Assembly: GCA_001898035.1 (NCBI GenBank) | Contig: MKRX01000027.1 | Location: 137,147-187,012 of the forward strand | Direction of reading: 5' to 3' | DNA: 49,866 bases | From: Armatimonadetes bacterium 55-13 | GTDB lineage: Bacteria; Armatimonadota; Fimbriimonadia; Fimbriimonadales; Fimbriimonadaceae | Program-made: the position numbers and the translations under genes | Shown here: one piece after another, positions 29,578 to 35,347 of the stretch | Layout of the letters: each line of letters starts with the position of its first letter | Position numbering within the stretch: position 1 is the stretch's first letter | The notes under the pieces: model-generated | What the model was told of the DNA's origin: nothing | The model's database searches: none | Seen by the model: only the letters and a program-made list of their open reading frames with translations

Positions 29578-30831
29578 CTAGCCCTGGACATGGAAAGGAA
29601 GGTTGGCGGTAGCCGCATTTCCTTTGCCGTCCTTGACGGTAATGTAGACCCGATAGGCGCCGGGCTGATCGGGGACTTTGAACTCAACTTTTGTGCCGTG
29701 CGAGTTGTCAAGGACACCCTTGATAACCCCTGGACGTTGCTCGCCTTGACCTGCAAAGGCTTTGTTTTCGGCTTCGCGTCTTAGCTCCCAGAGGTAAGTG
29801 AGAGGATCCCCGTCCGGATCCGTTGCTTTGACGATAGCGGTAGCTTGACTGCCCTTTGGCACATTCTTTTGAGCGATATCTAAGCTAAGTTCGGAAAGGG
29901 AAGGAGCACGGTTCTTGGGCCAATGGCCAGTCCAAGCCTTTGTAAGGACATCGATTGCCGCCGTTCTCTCTCCGGAGGGGAGAAACATTCCGAACCAAGT
30001 AGGTGTTTCTTCTTGCTTGTCCCCCCACAGGAAGGCATAGGAGCCAAGACACCATCCTGATTGTCCAGCGATCGAGTCTTGATAGTTCTTCTCGTAATAG
30101 GCGGCTTTCTCCGTGCTCGTTTGTTCTAGAGCGGCGCCCCAAGGGGTCTTAGGCCGCTCCCATGGCCCGAGGGGGCCGTACTCGGTTACTACAAACGGCT
30201 TGTCCCAGCCAAACTCTTTCAAGCGCTTGGGCAGGGTGGGGAGTCCGCCGTAGGAGTTCACTCCGAGCACATCGATGCTGGGAGCGTATTTCTTAATGTG
30301 GTCGATCTTCTGCTGGCTGATCTCCGCGACCACCGTCATCGTCGGGTGGTTGGGATCGATCTGCTTGGCGGCTTTGGCGATCTGTTCGACGGCGATCCAG
30401 ACAGCGGGGACGTCGTTCCCCTCGGCTTCCATCTCATTGCCGATGCCCCACATGAGGAGGGCGGGATGGTCTTTGTGCTTCTGGAAGACGGCTTTCGAAG
30501 ACTCAAGCTGCTGCTTGACCTTGGCGTCGTCGTTGTAGTCGAAGTAAGACTTATGGCCGAGCCATACGCCGATGGTTAGAGTAAGGCTGTGCTTCTGACA
30601 GGCGTCGAGCTCTTCGCCTGCCTTGTCGGCTCCCCAGGTGCGCATCGAGTTGCCGCCAGAGGCGACGAGGTCCTCCATTCGAGTCGTGCCGCCCACGCCG
30701 CGGATCACGTAGGGTTTGCCGCTGTGGAGAAGTTTCCAAGCGCCGGGTTCGCCAGCGACTTCCACCTTACCGGCAGGGGCTGATGTCGTAGAAGGAGACA
30801 TAAGAAGGCCTAGAGCAATAGCGGTGAGCAT
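29578..30831 (-). CDS. Secreted glycoside hydrolase, GH2/GH5-like TIM barrel with Ig-like tail
   Basis: 417 residues. A signal peptide (MLTAIALGLLMSPSTTSAPAG) precedes a TIM barrel with acid/base Glu133 in MWGIGNEMEA and probable nucleophile Glu217 in VVTEYGPLG, the clan GH-A pattern. A C-terminal Ig/cadherin-like domain (from APSLSELSLDIAQ, with DPDGDPLTYLWELRR and VPDQPGAYRVYITVKDGKG) may bind substrate or the surface. The ATG at 30831 gives a clean signal peptide and lies 13 bases after the stop of the small membrane protein gene, so it is the last gene of a LacI-controlled unit. The substrate is unknown, probably a plant or microbial polysaccharide. Confidence 0.85.
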   Translation of the reverse strand: MLTAIALGLLMSPSTTSAPAGKVEVAGEPGAWKLLHSGKPYVIRGVGGTTRMEDLVASGGNSMRTWGADKAGEELDACQKHSLTLTIGVWLGHKSYFDYNDDAKVKQQLESSKAVFQKHKDHPALLMWGIGNEMEAEGNDVPAVWIAVEQIAKAAKQIDPNHPTMTVVAEISQQKIDHIKKYAPSIDVLGVNSYGGLPTLPKRLKEFGWDKPFVVTEYGPLGPWERPKTPWGAALEQTSTEKAAYYEKNYQDSIAGQSGWCLGSYAFLWGDKQEETPTWFGMFLPSGERTAAIDVLTKAWTGHWPKNRAPSLSELSLDIAQKNVPKGSQATAIVKATDPDGDPLTYLWELRREAENKAFAGQGEQRPGVIKGVLDNSHGTKVEFKVPDQPGAYRVYITVKDGKGNAATANLPFHVQG

Positions 30832-30844
30832 GATTATTGAGGGT

Positions 30845-31126
30845 CTATTGACCGGGGGCAGGAGGCGCGGTGGGTTGATTGCCAGGGTTTCCGGTCCCAC
30901 CTTCCGTCGCTCCGTACTTCTTCGTCTGCTCTTCGACCATCTTTTCCATCTCCGGCGAGAGCTTGCCTTTCATATAGGAGGGGACGGCTCCGTCAGGACC
31001 GAGTTTCAGCTTGGCCGCCGGGAATTCGGGCGGTCCCGAAAGCATTCGGAAGCCAAAGAAGCAGACGAGGCCAACGACGACCACGACGACGCTGTAAACG
31101 AGGGGCTTGGGTATTTCGCGTTTCAT
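30845..31126 (-). CDS. Small single-helix membrane protein, partner of pseudopilin 4
   Basis: 93 residues: MKREIPKPL, then one transmembrane helix (YSVVVVVVGLVCFFGF), then a short soluble segment with PDGAVPSYMKGKLSPEMEKMVEEQTKK and a Pro/Gly tail. It shares a P-TM-F[RK] layout and a PxG-x-PxxM motif with the partner of pseudopilin 5, suggesting one family. ATG 31126 is preferred; upstream is a 10-bp hairpin instead of an overlap. Function unknown. Confidence 0.78.
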   Translation of the reverse strand: MKREIPKPLVYSVVVVVVGLVCFFGFRMLSGPPEFPAAKLKLGPDGAVPSYMKGKLSPEMEKMVEEQTKKYGATEGGTGNPGNQPTAPPAPGQ

Positions 31127-31138
31127 CTCGGGTTTGGA

Positions 31139-31164
31139 GGGGCTTGGCAATAAAGCCAAGCCCC
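31139..31164 (-). promoter_or_regulatory. Intercistronic hairpin between pseudopilin 4 and its partner
   Basis: GGGGCTTGGC pairs perfectly with GCCAAGCCCC around a 6-base loop. It has no T tract, lies 6 bases after the pseudopilin stop and 12 bases before the partner start. It probably protects the upstream mRNA or sets the ratio of the two products. Confidence 0.6.
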
Positions 31165-31170
31165 TGGATG

Positions 31171-32034
31171 TCAGTTTTGGGGAAGAAGGCACTCTCGAGG
31201 CGTGCCGGTCGTGAAGTCCTCGTAGTCGAGGCAGACGCCGCGGAGTGTCGGATTGACGGCCGCTGCGTAGTCGGTCTTGCGTTCGTAGCCAGGGAAAATA
31301 TAGCCGCGCGGTGCGGTCTTCACGTGGCCGTCGACGTATGCGAAGCCGGCTTTTCCTGCATTCGACGTGAAGTCGATGCCGGAGTAATACTTCTGGGCAT
31401 TACCGACCGGAGTGCTCGAGTCTTCGTAAGCGAGCGTGTTTGCGGAGCCCGTCCACCAGACCCAGTTCTCATAGAACGAGGACCAGATCCACCAAGGCGG
31501 ATCTACGACCGCGCCGTTGCGCTGCTCCGTCAACATGATGGAGTTGGCGGGCATCGGAACGGCGGTCTGGGAGATGCTACGTACGGGGAACTCGGCGGGA
31601 CCCCAAGTCGAGTTGCCACCGACGCCTCGGATGACGTTATTCGCGGCTCGGTAGGAGCGCTTGATGTCGCCGAGGGGCGAGGGAACCTTGGCCGCGCGGT
31701 CCAGACCGGACTCCATGATGCCGTAGTTCTTCGTGTACGTGTAGATCAGCTTGTCCCAAGAAGGGCAGCCCCACTGGGAATCGTTACATGCGCCGGTAGC
31801 CCAAGAAGAGCCGTTGCCGTTCATGGTGCCACGCTTGGGGAAGATGTCGTCATAGTCCCCTGAGTACAGGATGATTCCTAGCGTATTTTGTTTCAAATTT
31901 GCGAGGCTGGCCGCGTTTTTAGCCGCGACTTTCGCTTGGGCGAATACAGGGAAGAGGATCGCCGCCAAGATGGCGATGATCGCAATTACGACTAGAAGTT
32001 CAATAAGGGTAAATGCATTCCGGAGTCTATTCAC
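31171..32034 (-). CDS. Type IV prepilin-like (pseudopilin) protein 4
   Basis: 287 residues. Leader MNRLRNA, FTLIE (Ala7/Phe8), hydrophobic helix and FPVFAQAK, then SGDYDD near residue 59. Here the C-terminal signature is complete: FAYVDGHVKTAPRG, as in the H-X9-DG group of Planctomycetes and Armatimonadota. Cys pairs (ACNDSQWGCPSW and the terminal CLDY...CLLP) could form disulfides. Its ATG overlaps the LacI stop by 4 bases (ATGA), an unusual direct coupling of a regulator and a surface protein. Confidence 0.9.
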   Translation of the reverse strand: MNRLRNAFTLIELLVVIAIIAILAAILFPVFAQAKVAAKNAASLANLKQNTLGIILYSGDYDDIFPKRGTMNGNGSSWATGACNDSQWGCPSWDKLIYTYTKNYGIMESGLDRAAKVPSPLGDIKRSYRAANNVIRGVGGNSTWGPAEFPVRSISQTAVPMPANSIMLTEQRNGAVVDPPWWIWSSFYENWVWWTGSANTLAYEDSSTPVGNAQKYYSGIDFTSNAGKAGFAYVDGHVKTAPRGYIFPGYERKTDYAAAVNPTLRGVCLDYEDFTTGTPRECLLPQN

Positions 32035-33056
32035 TTGATGTCCTCCTTTGGACGAGAAGTTGAATCTCTGACAATGAGTTCTGTTTCGAAAACCTTAGAT
32101 TCAAATCGCTTTTCACCGTCGATCATTGCGATTAGCGCTCGAGTAGCGATTGAGGCCACGCTATCAACTGGTTGTTTGACCGTGGTAATTGGGGGGATGA
32201 AAACGGTGCTCAGCGGGACGTTGTCAAATCCGGCGACGCTATAGTCATCAGGAACTTTAAGACCTTGACTCACCGCGCCGCGAATCGCACCCACCGCGAT
32301 TTCATCGTTGGCGCAAAAGATGGCGGTGGGCTGTTCTTTGTTGGCGAGCATTTCCAGCATGGCCTTTTCTCCGCCCTGCATCGTAAAGTCACCCGGAAGA
32401 ACCCACGATGGTTCGAATCGCCCGCCCATTGCAGGAACCATCTGCTCAAAGAAGTAGCGACGTTCAATGGCGTCTTCCATCTGCATTCGACCATAGAAGT
32501 GACCAAATTTCCGATGCCCCAACTGGAAGAGGTGTTCCAGGACTGCTTTAACCCCACTCTCGTTGTCTACCGAGTACTGAATCGAGTTTGGGCGGGCCTC
32601 CCCGGCGATGACAACATGAGGAATGTCGTGCTTCTCGATAACGTCGATGACGGGGGCATGCTGGGGCGGGGCAAGAAAGATCAAGCCATCGACTCGACCG
32701 TCGAGCAACACGTCGCTCATTTCTTGCGTCTGCATTTGATCGTATCGAGTGAAGAACATCACATCGTAGTGAAGTTCTTCCGCGGCATTCACAATTCCGT
32801 TCAGTGAGTTTTGAAGGTAGGGGCTCAAAACAATATCTGCACTGGCTTCGCTGGGAACGACGCCGATGGTAAAAGTACGTCGAGTAATAAGGGATCGCGC
32901 GAGCCGGTTCGGACGATATTGGAGTTCCTGAGCTGCTTCCAAGACCCGTCGTTTAACATCTTCGGGAACGGGACGGGGGCCGTTATTCAGCGCATAGCTA
33001 ACGGTACTTACCGAGATGTTTAGCTTCTTTGCAATGTCCTTGATCGTTGACGCCAT
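32031..33056 (-). CDS. LacI-family transcriptional regulator 1
   Basis: 341 residues. N-terminal LacI helix-turn-helix (TIKDIAKKLNISVSTVSYALNN), hinge helix YRPNRLARSL, then a periplasmic-binding-protein-like sugar sensor (IGVVPSEASADIVLSPYLQNSLNGIV, GLIFLAPP, AIFCANDEIAVGAIRGA, VAGFDNVPLSTVFIPPITTVKQP). The start ATG 33056 is chosen as it leaves the normal N-terminus. A 28-bp palindrome 17 bases upstream overlaps its promoter, so it is very probably autorepressed. It heads LacI - pseudopilin 4 - small membrane protein - glycoside hydrolase, so a sugar probably induces all four. Confidence 0.93.
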   Translation of the reverse strand: MASTIKDIAKKLNISVSTVSYALNNGPRPVPEDVKRRVLEAAQELQYRPNRLARSLITRRTFTIGVVPSEASADIVLSPYLQNSLNGIVNAAEELHYDVMFFTRYDQMQTQEMSDVLLDGRVDGLIFLAPPQHAPVIDVIEKHDIPHVVIAGEARPNSIQYSVDNESGVKAVLEHLFQLGHRKFGHFYGRMQMEDAIERRYFFEQMVPAMGGRFEPSWVLPGDFTMQGGEKAMLEMLANKEQPTAIFCANDEIAVGAIRGAVSQGLKVPDDYSVAGFDNVPLSTVFIPPITTVKQPVDSVASIATRALIAMIDGEKRFESKVFETELIVRDSTSRPKEDIK

Positions 33057-33072
33057 CGTCCACTTCCGTAGC

Positions 33073-33100
33073 TGAGAAACGTTTCGCGAAACGTTTCTCA
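33073..33100. promoter_or_regulatory. LacI-type double operator, 28-bp perfect palindrome
   Basis: Two copies of GAAACGTTTC (33076-33085 and 33088-33097), 12 bases apart centre to centre, inside one perfect palindrome (half site TGAGAAACGTTTCG). AAACGTTT-like cores with a central CG are typical LacI/GalR sites. It covers the predicted transcription start of the leftward promoter. Confidence 0.85.
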
Positions 33101-33104
33101 CAAC

Positions 33105-33132
33105 AATATAGAAGCAGATCTGTTGTTTGCAA
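33105..33132 (-). promoter_or_regulatory. Promoter of the leftward LacI 1 unit
   Basis: Reverse strand: -35 TTGCAA (33127-33132), 16-base spacer, -10 TATATT (33105-33110). Start would be near 33098, inside the operator. Confidence 0.55.
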
Positions 33133-33180
33133 AGGGTTTTTTTGACTTTCCATATTTTTTCCCAGTCTTTTAAATAGTGT

Positions 33181-33209
33181 TTGGCATTGCCTTTAACTTG
33201 TCATAGAAT
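33181..33209 (+). promoter_or_regulatory. Promoter of the rightward LacI 2 unit
   Basis: -35 TTGGCA (33181-33186), 17-base spacer, -10 TAGAAT (33204-33209). Start would be near 33216, within the first direct repeat. Confidence 0.6.
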
Positions 33210-33210
33210 T

Positions 33211-33250
33211 GAGCTAAAGTATTTGAGCAAGGGAGCTAAAGTATTTGAGC
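33211..33250 (+). repeat. Tandem 18-bp direct repeat at the LacI 2 start, probable operators
   Basis: GAGCTAAAGTATTTGAGC occurs at 33211-33228 and again, unchanged, at 33233-33250, 22 bases apart. Each copy is an imperfect palindrome (GCTAAA/TTTGAGC), as a LacI dimer site would be. The first covers the transcription start; the second contains the TTG start codon. Confidence 0.7.
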
Positions 33251-34297
33251 GAGCCGAATTCATCGTTGAAAAAGAAAGGGAGAGCAACACTTGCCGAAGT
33301 TGCAAGACGCGCAGGGGTCTCGCCGACGACAGCCTCTCTGGTCTTGCGCGGAAAGACTCAGGAACTCCGGATTTCTGAAGAAACAGATTTGCGGGTGCGG
33401 CAAGCGGCAAGAGAGTTTGACTATTCACCAAATTTGCTGGTCCACTCGCTGCAGCAGGGAAAGACGGGCGTCATTTCTTTCTTCAACGCCTTTCGCCATC
33501 GGAGTTCCGACGACCTATATATGGATCGTCTCTCCACGGCCATTGAGCATGCCGCGGGAAGATTGGGCTGCGATGTACTGATTCACTGCGACTTCTCCAA
33601 ATCGCCAGAGGATCTTTACCGTTTTATCAATGGCGGTCGCGCCGATGGATTGCTTTTCTTTGCTCCGCGGGCCGATGATCCATTGCTTCCCTGGTTACGC
33701 AAATCCAACTTGCCGGTCGTGATTATTGGCGCCCAGGACCCAGAGGGCGTCTTGCCGTCCGTTCAGGATGACGTCGTCTCGGGGCTCAAGTCGGTGGCAG
33801 ATAACCTCGTCGCGCTTGGACATCGCAGAGTGGCCATTGTCGTTGAGAGAGGGCCAGATTTTCTCGACTCTGACCTTCGCGCCAGCATTCTGAGAGAATT
33901 CCTCAAAGAAAGAGGGGTCAATGTCCCTAATGACCAAGTGTTCAACCGAGAGGGGCCGGCGGACGCTGTTCTGAATGAGATTTTGGGGCAAACCCATCCA
34001 CCCACGGCTGTCTTCTGTTGGAGAGATTGCTTGGCCTACGCTCTGCTAGAGGCATGCGAGAGGAAGGGTGTACGAGTTCCCGAACAGCTCTCAGTAGTGG
34101 GATATGACGGCCTTCATTGGCCCGCCGCCACTCGGCACATAGCCTCTTCCGTTCAAATCGACCTGAAAGTATTGGCGGAGCAGGCAGTTGCCCTACTCGA
34201 TTCCTACATAAGCGCAACGGTGGAGGAGACCAAGCAAGTCTTGATCCCCGTGAGTTTTCATCCTGGGACCACGATTGGTCCCGCGTCCGAAGAATGA
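33245..34297 (+). CDS. LacI-family transcriptional regulator 2
   Basis: 350 residues. [27 protein letters not shown], hinge region [15 protein letters not shown], then a sensor domain ([80 protein letters not shown]). Begins with TTG at 33245, with GGGAG a little upstream. It differs clearly from LacI 1, so the two respond to different ligands. It heads LacI 2 - pseudopilin 5 - small membrane protein, the mirror image of the leftward unit. Confidence 0.92.
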
Positions 34298-34313
34298 ACT
34301 TCTGGAGTACACG

Positions 34314-35123
34314 ATGCAGTACAAATCCCAATCATCTCGACCGTCAGGTTTCACCCTGATCGAGCTTCTTGTTGTTATCGCCATCATCGCCATCTTGGCG
34401 GCGATCCTCTTCCCGGTATTTGCGCAGGCCAAACTGGCCGCGAAGAAGTCGGCCGACTTGTCCAACGTGAAGCAGCTCAACCTCGCACAGACTATGTACG
34501 GGGGAGACTACGACGACACGTACGCCTTTTGCTGGGGCTTCGGCAATGGAACGAGTTCGCCGGGACAGTGGCAGCCCTTCGCTTACGTCATCAGTCCCTA
34601 TATCAAGAATAACGATCTCTGGAAATCGCCCGTAGACAATTGGAGCCGAGGGGCCACCGAGCCATCAGGGCAAGAGTATTGCGACAGCACAAAATCAGCT
34701 CATCCCAGAACCTATGCAATGAACTATACATGGCCGGCCAGCGGATGGGGATGGAGCGCATCGGACCAACAAGAGCAGATGTCTCCGACTGCGTCTAACG
34801 GCGGAGCCTCTCAAACAAATGTTCCCAGTCCAGCCACCACGATCTTAATGGCCCCGCGCCCGAACTGGTATTCGCAAGTCTGCGTAGGTTGGGCGACAGA
34901 CGTGTTCTTCAACTATGACGAGTTCAATATGGTGGGCGGTGGAGCAAAGATGTTTACGAACGGCGCTAACTATGCGTTCTGCGACGGACACGCCAAGTTC
35001 ATGCAGAAAGGACAGACGCTAAAGGCTCAAGGAAGTCAGGTGGGTTCGACGGCACCAGCAAATTGGCCAAGCGATCCAGTGAACTGGCCCTGGCCAGTTG
35101 GAATGTGGGACAAGCGTCAATGA
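34314..35123 (+). CDS. Type IV prepilin-like (pseudopilin) protein 5
   Basis: 269 residues. Leader [17 protein letters not shown] (Gly12/Phe13: the only copy here with the canonical Gly), hydrophobic helix and FPVFAQAK, then GGDYDD. C-terminal [14 protein letters not shown] carries the DGH signature. The ATG at 34314 has CTGGAG 8 bases before it and lies 16 bases after the LacI 2 stop. Expected to be processed by a prepilin peptidase encoded elsewhere. Confidence 0.9.
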
Positions 35124-35347
35124 AGTCCGAACTAAAGCCTCCGGTCTTGGTCGCAGCTATCGTCGCGTTAGTGGTAGTGCTGGGATTCGTGATCTTCAAG
35201 TTCGCCGGATCCTCAGGAGACCTCGATCAAGGGCAAGTCAAATACACCCCTGGAGTGCCACCTTGGATGGATAAGGAGGCAAGCGCAAGCGCGAAAGGCG
35301 CCAGCCAACCTCCTAGCATGGCGCCCAAGATTGGCGGAAATAACTAA
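35120..35347 (+). CDS. Small single-helix membrane protein, partner of pseudopilin 5
   Basis: 75 residues: MKSELKPP, one transmembrane helix ([20 protein letters not shown]), then [12 protein letters not shown] and a Ser/Pro-rich tail. The PG-x-PxWM segment resembles PDGAVPSYM in the partner of pseudopilin 4, so the two belong together. The ATG overlaps the pseudopilin stop by 4 bases. Function unknown. Confidence 0.8.

Follow-up and report, generated by a model that had tools for sequence, protein, structure and literature searches.

Comparative analysis of the divergent region between two lacI genes of Armatimonadetes bacterium 55-13 indicates that two separate autorepressor circuits very probably lie here back to back, each LacI protein acting on its own operator and its own operon, and that the operator of the first circuit, O1, is a composite of overlapping sites. 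The region belongs to the 49,866-bp stretch of DNA analysed in this study (hereafter, the window), and its features are listed in Table 1.

Table 1. Features of the divergent LacI-1/LacI-2 region, in window coordinates
Feature	Position	Strand	Evidence and remarks
GH158-type glycoside hydrolase, last gene of LacI-1 operon	29578..30900	-	phmmer: 9oro, E 4e-99; 6pal, E 3e-72
Small protein, N-terminal hydrophobic stretch, no family match	30845..31192	-	relatives in three loci (cluster C13)
Prepilin-like protein	31171..32034	-	4-nt overlap with lacI-1 end
LacI-1, LacI-family repressor	32031..33056	-	Pfam LacI and Peripla_BP_3; ATG at 33056
O1, putative composite operator of LacI-1	33073..33100	.	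sequence; conservation 5' of LacI-1 orthologues
Predicted LacI-1 operon promoter	33105..33132	-	TTGCAA-16-TATATT; promoter scan, 9/12 consensus matches
Predicted LacI-2 operon promoter	33181..33209	+	TTGGCA-17-TAGAAT; promoter scan, 10/12 matches
O2a, first putative LacI-2 operator copy (16-bp core 33213-33228)	33211..33228	+	sequence; motif in 25/31 orthologues
O2b, second putative LacI-2 operator copy, over start codon	33233..33250	+	sequence; nine other orthologues have doublets at 21-22 bp
LacI-2, LacI-family repressor	33245..34297	+	ORF list and Pfam; TTG start inferred
Prepilin-like protein with H-X9-DG motif	34275..35123	+	overlaps lacI-2 end if listed TTG start is right
Small protein, no family match, third LacI-2 operon gene	35063..35347	+	cluster C14, three loci

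Organization of the intergenic region

Both regulators belong to the LacI family, with PF00356 and PF13377 above the cut-off in each. The ORF list opens lacI-1 at an earlier GTG, and the orthologues begin at the residue encoded by the ATG at 33056. For LacI-2, the TTG start was deduced because of the reading frame and of an AGGGAG sequence 9 nt upstream.

O1 (TGAGAAACGTTTCGCGAAACGTTTCTCA) is a perfect 28-bp palindrome that contains two GAAACGTTTC cores (33076-33085 and 33088-33097), with a GC linker between them and a centre spacing of 12 bp. Each core reads GAAAC|GTTTC, that is, an even palindrome with a central CG, as in LacI-family operators. The palindrome starts 4 nt past the leftward -10 and covers about +1 to +28 of the predicted LacI-1 promoter; in most orthologues the operator likewise comes after the -10. 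On the other side, O2a and O2b (GAGCTAAAGTATTTGAGC) are identical over 18 bp and lie 22 bp apart from start to start. The O2 core begins 3 nt after the rightward -10, as it does in relatives, and O2b includes the codon with which the LacI-2 frame opens, TTG 33245-33247. The initial annotation had proposed, from the sequence, a leftward promoter with a 28-bp double operator on its start point and a rightward promoter followed by two 18-bp copies spaced 22 bases, the second with the TTG start; the coordinates of all these elements were confirmed in the sequence and by the promoter scan, which returned 3 sites in the scanned region against 1.3 expected, with weak consensus matches.

Conservation of O1 with LacI-1

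The GAAACGTTTC core was found upstream of all 31 orthologues of LacI-1, the most distant of them at 39% identity (0.23 expected from shuffling), and the 12-bp core pair upstream of 17 of them (0 expected), the shuffled sets retaining base composition only and close species being counted, so that these figures are not phylogenetically independent. In many of the orthologues the first core starts a few bases past the predicted -10, that is, on the start point. Where the pair is lacking, the orthologues carry a core close to lacI-1 and another 34-185 bp upstream, which in several relatives falls within a divergent GH158 gene or ahead of it; helical phasing of these wider spacings was not seen by eye. 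Some genomes carry the 12-bp composite at a gene for a secreted protein and a single core at lacI-1. The comparison also took in 42 less closely related LacI homologues, almost all of them from other phyla: the core occurred in 7 and the 12-bp pair in none.

The composite GAAWCGNTTCGCGAANCGWTTC is present once in the genome of origin and in 39 of 291 Armatimonadota genomes, spanning 14 genera, and the reversed pattern used as a control in the genome-wide pattern searches matched 0 times in every genome. Of the 39 composite-bearing genomes, 38 belong to the 49 in which LacI-1 has a strong match (Fisher p 2e-36), a count that includes close relatives (ten from one genus) and overstates the number of independent events. 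When gaps of 0-30 bp between cores were allowed in the same 291 genomes, 36 of the 41 pairs had a 2-bp gap, and the linker was GC in all 36. The single core behaves differently: GAAACGTTTC occurs 4 times in the 4.5-Mb genome vs 6 times for the reversed pattern and, with one mismatch, 4 times in the window vs 2.4 expected. A regulon defined by the single 10-bp core in this genome was consequently rejected, its matches (one before another lacI, one in a coding frame) being at chance level. The objection that the motifs might occur randomly in unrelated places was thus answered for the composite, which is tied to LacI-1, and for the 16-bp O2 core GCTAAAGTATTTGAGC, whose only exact matches in the genome are the two O2 copies, while single GAAACGTTTC cores remain at chance level.

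We also observed three cases outside the main pattern. At positions 1501-1510 of locus L001 (G000:C5:306211-306220), in the same genome, a single GAAACGTTTC stands shortly before the ATG of another LacI gene; its flanks (ATATGAAACGTTTCATAT) differ from those of O1, and the common core makes either cross-talk or discrimination by the flanks possible. In some relatives (L187, L189 and L194), O1 cores lie within the first codons of target genes and are read as RNVS near the N-terminus of secreted proteins. In a Chloroflexi MAG (L272), GTAACGTTTC and GAAACGTTAC occur 13 bp apart 5' of a LacI gene, an overlapping pair outside the phylum.

Occupancy of the composite operator

A 2014 survey of LacI-family factors described overlapping operator pairs at about 13 bp in 110 operons and judged them to be real, as for GntR at E. 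coli gntKU, and structurally unexplained (PMC4052901). O1 resembles this class in its palindromic sites, its overlapping contact zones, its conservation across orthologues and its unexplained binding mode, and differs from it in a spacing of exactly 12 bp, in an invariant GC linker and, in the window, in being a perfect 28-bp palindrome. We regard it as a known kind of overlapping operator in an unusually clean example: it is perfectly symmetric, has an invariant linker and co-occurs with a single repressor in about 40 genomes. The Armatimonadota, the phylum in which O1 is found, are not mentioned in that survey.

Most likely, a single LacI-1 dimer would occupy O1 at any one time, using either of the two registers. 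The initial annotation had placed two dimers side by side on almost the same face of the helix. The angle agrees with this, since 12 bp correspond to 1.14 helical turns, or about 50 degrees; the side-by-side fit does not, since base contacts extend about seven base pairs from the site centre and would overlap (PMC4052901). The true same-face spacing is that of the 22-bp LacI-2 pair. Simultaneous binding of two LacI-1 dimers in a cooperative, distorted complex is the alternative, which we consider possible but doubtful. The exact 12-bp spacing and the invariant GC linker suggest a composite read as a unit; L138, 5' of a LacI-1 orthologue, has three cores at 12-bp steps, and overlapping sites are functional for other LacI factors, such as GntR at gntKU. 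Against this, the same CGCG belongs to both inner half-sites and would be required by each of the two inner domains, and dimers at such distances were called hard to reconcile with known structures (PMC4052901). The linker was GC in 18/18 pairs, and the position second from the centre had 19 changes in inner vs 4 in outer half-sites, relatedness being ignored. The invariant linker and the uneven tolerance of the half-sites fit a composite read as one unit, without deciding between the two models. Tentatively, O1 might be a dedicated operator on which two dimers share one major groove by means of a bent or partly unwound CGCG step. If two-dimer occupancy were true, it would represent a binding mode for which the survey found no counterpart among the LacI-family structures of the time.

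Conservation of O2 with LacI-2

The motif GCTMAAnnnnTTKAGC (GCTMAANNNNTTKAGC, at most 1 mismatch) was found, often doubled, upstream of 25 of the 31 LacI-2 orthologues, vs 0.09 expected from shuffled regions that keep base composition only, close species again being counted, and commonly begins 0 or 3 nt after the -10. In family f19, GCTAAAATACTTTAGC lies upstream of the -35 and is separated by 54-55 bp from a GCTAAAGTACTTTAGC-like copy 2-3 nt past the -10. The doublets of genus g19, for instance GCTCAAACGTTTGAGC, directly follow the -10 with a spacing of 21-22 bp. The O2 sites of the window combine the spacing of g19 with an f19-like sequence. A recognisable O2 was absent at several LacI-2 orthologues (L116, L119, L061, L134 and L135). 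In the genome of origin, GCTMAANNNNTTKAGC gave 4 matches vs 4 for the control, two of the 4 being O2a and O2b; further O2 sites are therefore at chance level, one (L185) lying inside a long frame and another (L186) having no frame of at least 120 aa. As for the operator class, the O2 centre in the window is T-A and not the central CG that is usual, if not universal, in LacI-family operators, and centres in relatives are TA, CG or other. This does not exclude O2 from the LacI operators, because the survey lists 49 LacI factors with another operator centre and 29 with a degenerate one (PMC4052901).

LacI-2 would bind, probably in a cooperative manner, to O2a and O2b, which lie on the start point and the start codon at a distance of two helical turns. 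The tandem sites of RafR and ScrR, at 21-22 bp, are similarly two helical turns apart and were taken as cooperative two-dimer binding (PMC4052901); O2 differs from them in its motif, in its T-A rather than C-G centres and in having the second copy over the start codon. Identity of the two copies over 18 bp, together with the single site of several orthologues (L124, L126, L127 and L130), could also point to a recent tandem duplication, one copy sufficing as operator. We find this unlikely, as nine other orthologues have doublets at 21-22 bp with differing copies and 22 bp is a reported spacing peak of LacI factors, taken as cooperative (PMC4052901).

Two probably independent circuits

Each operator is conserved at the promoter of its own regulator, as in autoregulated LacI factors, autoregulation being reported in 72% of those surveyed (PMC4052901). 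The proposal that two differing operators serve two different LacI proteins was supported by phylogenetic footprinting, each site following its own repressor. The idea of a joint divergent control region fared less well: in other genomes that hold both regulators, LacI-1 and LacI-2 lie apart, so that the divergent arrangement is particular to this genome, no sign of joint control is seen and the circuits look independent.

From these comparisons we infer binding, repression, the sugar signals and occupancy, both promoters being predicted. LacI-1 on O1 would block transcription of lacI-1, the prepilin-like gene, the small gene and the GH158 gene, until a sugar, probably a beta-glucan oligosaccharide, released it. 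LacI-2 would likewise repress lacI-2, its prepilin-like gene and its small gene until its own sugar appeared. Cross-regulation of LacI-1 and LacI-2 through the common intergenic region might be imagined, as no more than 134 bp separate the centres of O1 and O2a in the window; it is nevertheless very unlikely, given that the motifs differ, that each goes with its own repressor in genomes that have the two genes at separate places, and that neither the O1 core nor the 12-bp pair was found at any LacI-2 orthologue except in the window, where the intergenic region is shared. Also very unlikely is a role of the 28-bp palindrome as RNA, in which the start of the transcript would form a 12-bp hairpin, protecting the mRNA or influencing its translation: the predicted LacI-1 leader can fold into a strong hairpin (z = -3.2), but any leader palindrome folds likewise, in 17/40 composite sites a mismatch interrupts the large hairpin while leaving both cores recognisable, and single cores without a second one occur at lacI-1 and upstream.

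Genes of the two operons and their relatives

The lacI-1 gene and the following prepilin-like gene are probably co-transcribed, because they overlap by 4 nt. The GH158-type protein aligns with 9oro over residues 45-438 of 440 and thus resembles GH158 enzymes (9oro, 6pal) over nearly its full length. Since members of the GH158 family are endo-beta-1,3-glucanases, a beta-glucan oligosaccharide is the likely signal of LacI-1, which is probably a local, autorepressing regulator of beta-glucan use. The closest solved relatives of LacI-1 are PurR and CcpA. PurR operators share a AAACGTTT centre, but LacI-1 scores far below the curated PurR and CcpA cut-offs and sits in a glycan-utilisation operon. 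Among the papers searched, none combines GH158, laminarin and LacI, and among the titles listed for the core sequence none deals with Armatimonadota.

In several relatives, LacI-1 is accompanied by GH158, a sugar ABC transporter, GH1 and secreted proteins; several of the promoters of these genes carry O1 cores. Relatives of LacI-2 often adjoin a GH30 enzyme (PF14587) and a prepilin-like gene; the genome of origin has one GH30 match, on another contig, with no O2 site listed nearby. Cluster C5 was set aside, since it proved to be a frame antisense to lacI-1 that occurs in G+C-rich relatives.

The comparative data predict operons for two Armatimonadota repressors, both tied to prepilin-like genes. 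Both operons have the same gene order: lacI, a prepilin-like gene and a small protein without known family. A prepilin-like gene (xTLIEx motif) lies directly 3' of lacI in 30/31 LacI-1 loci and 25/31 LacI-2 loci, vs only 1 of 42 LacI loci that are mostly from other phyla. The pairing of LacI with a prepilin seems to be standard in this lineage and suggests that these pseudopilins have a role in sugar use. In the genome of origin, such a gene was also observed 3' of 9 of the 14 further LacI genes.
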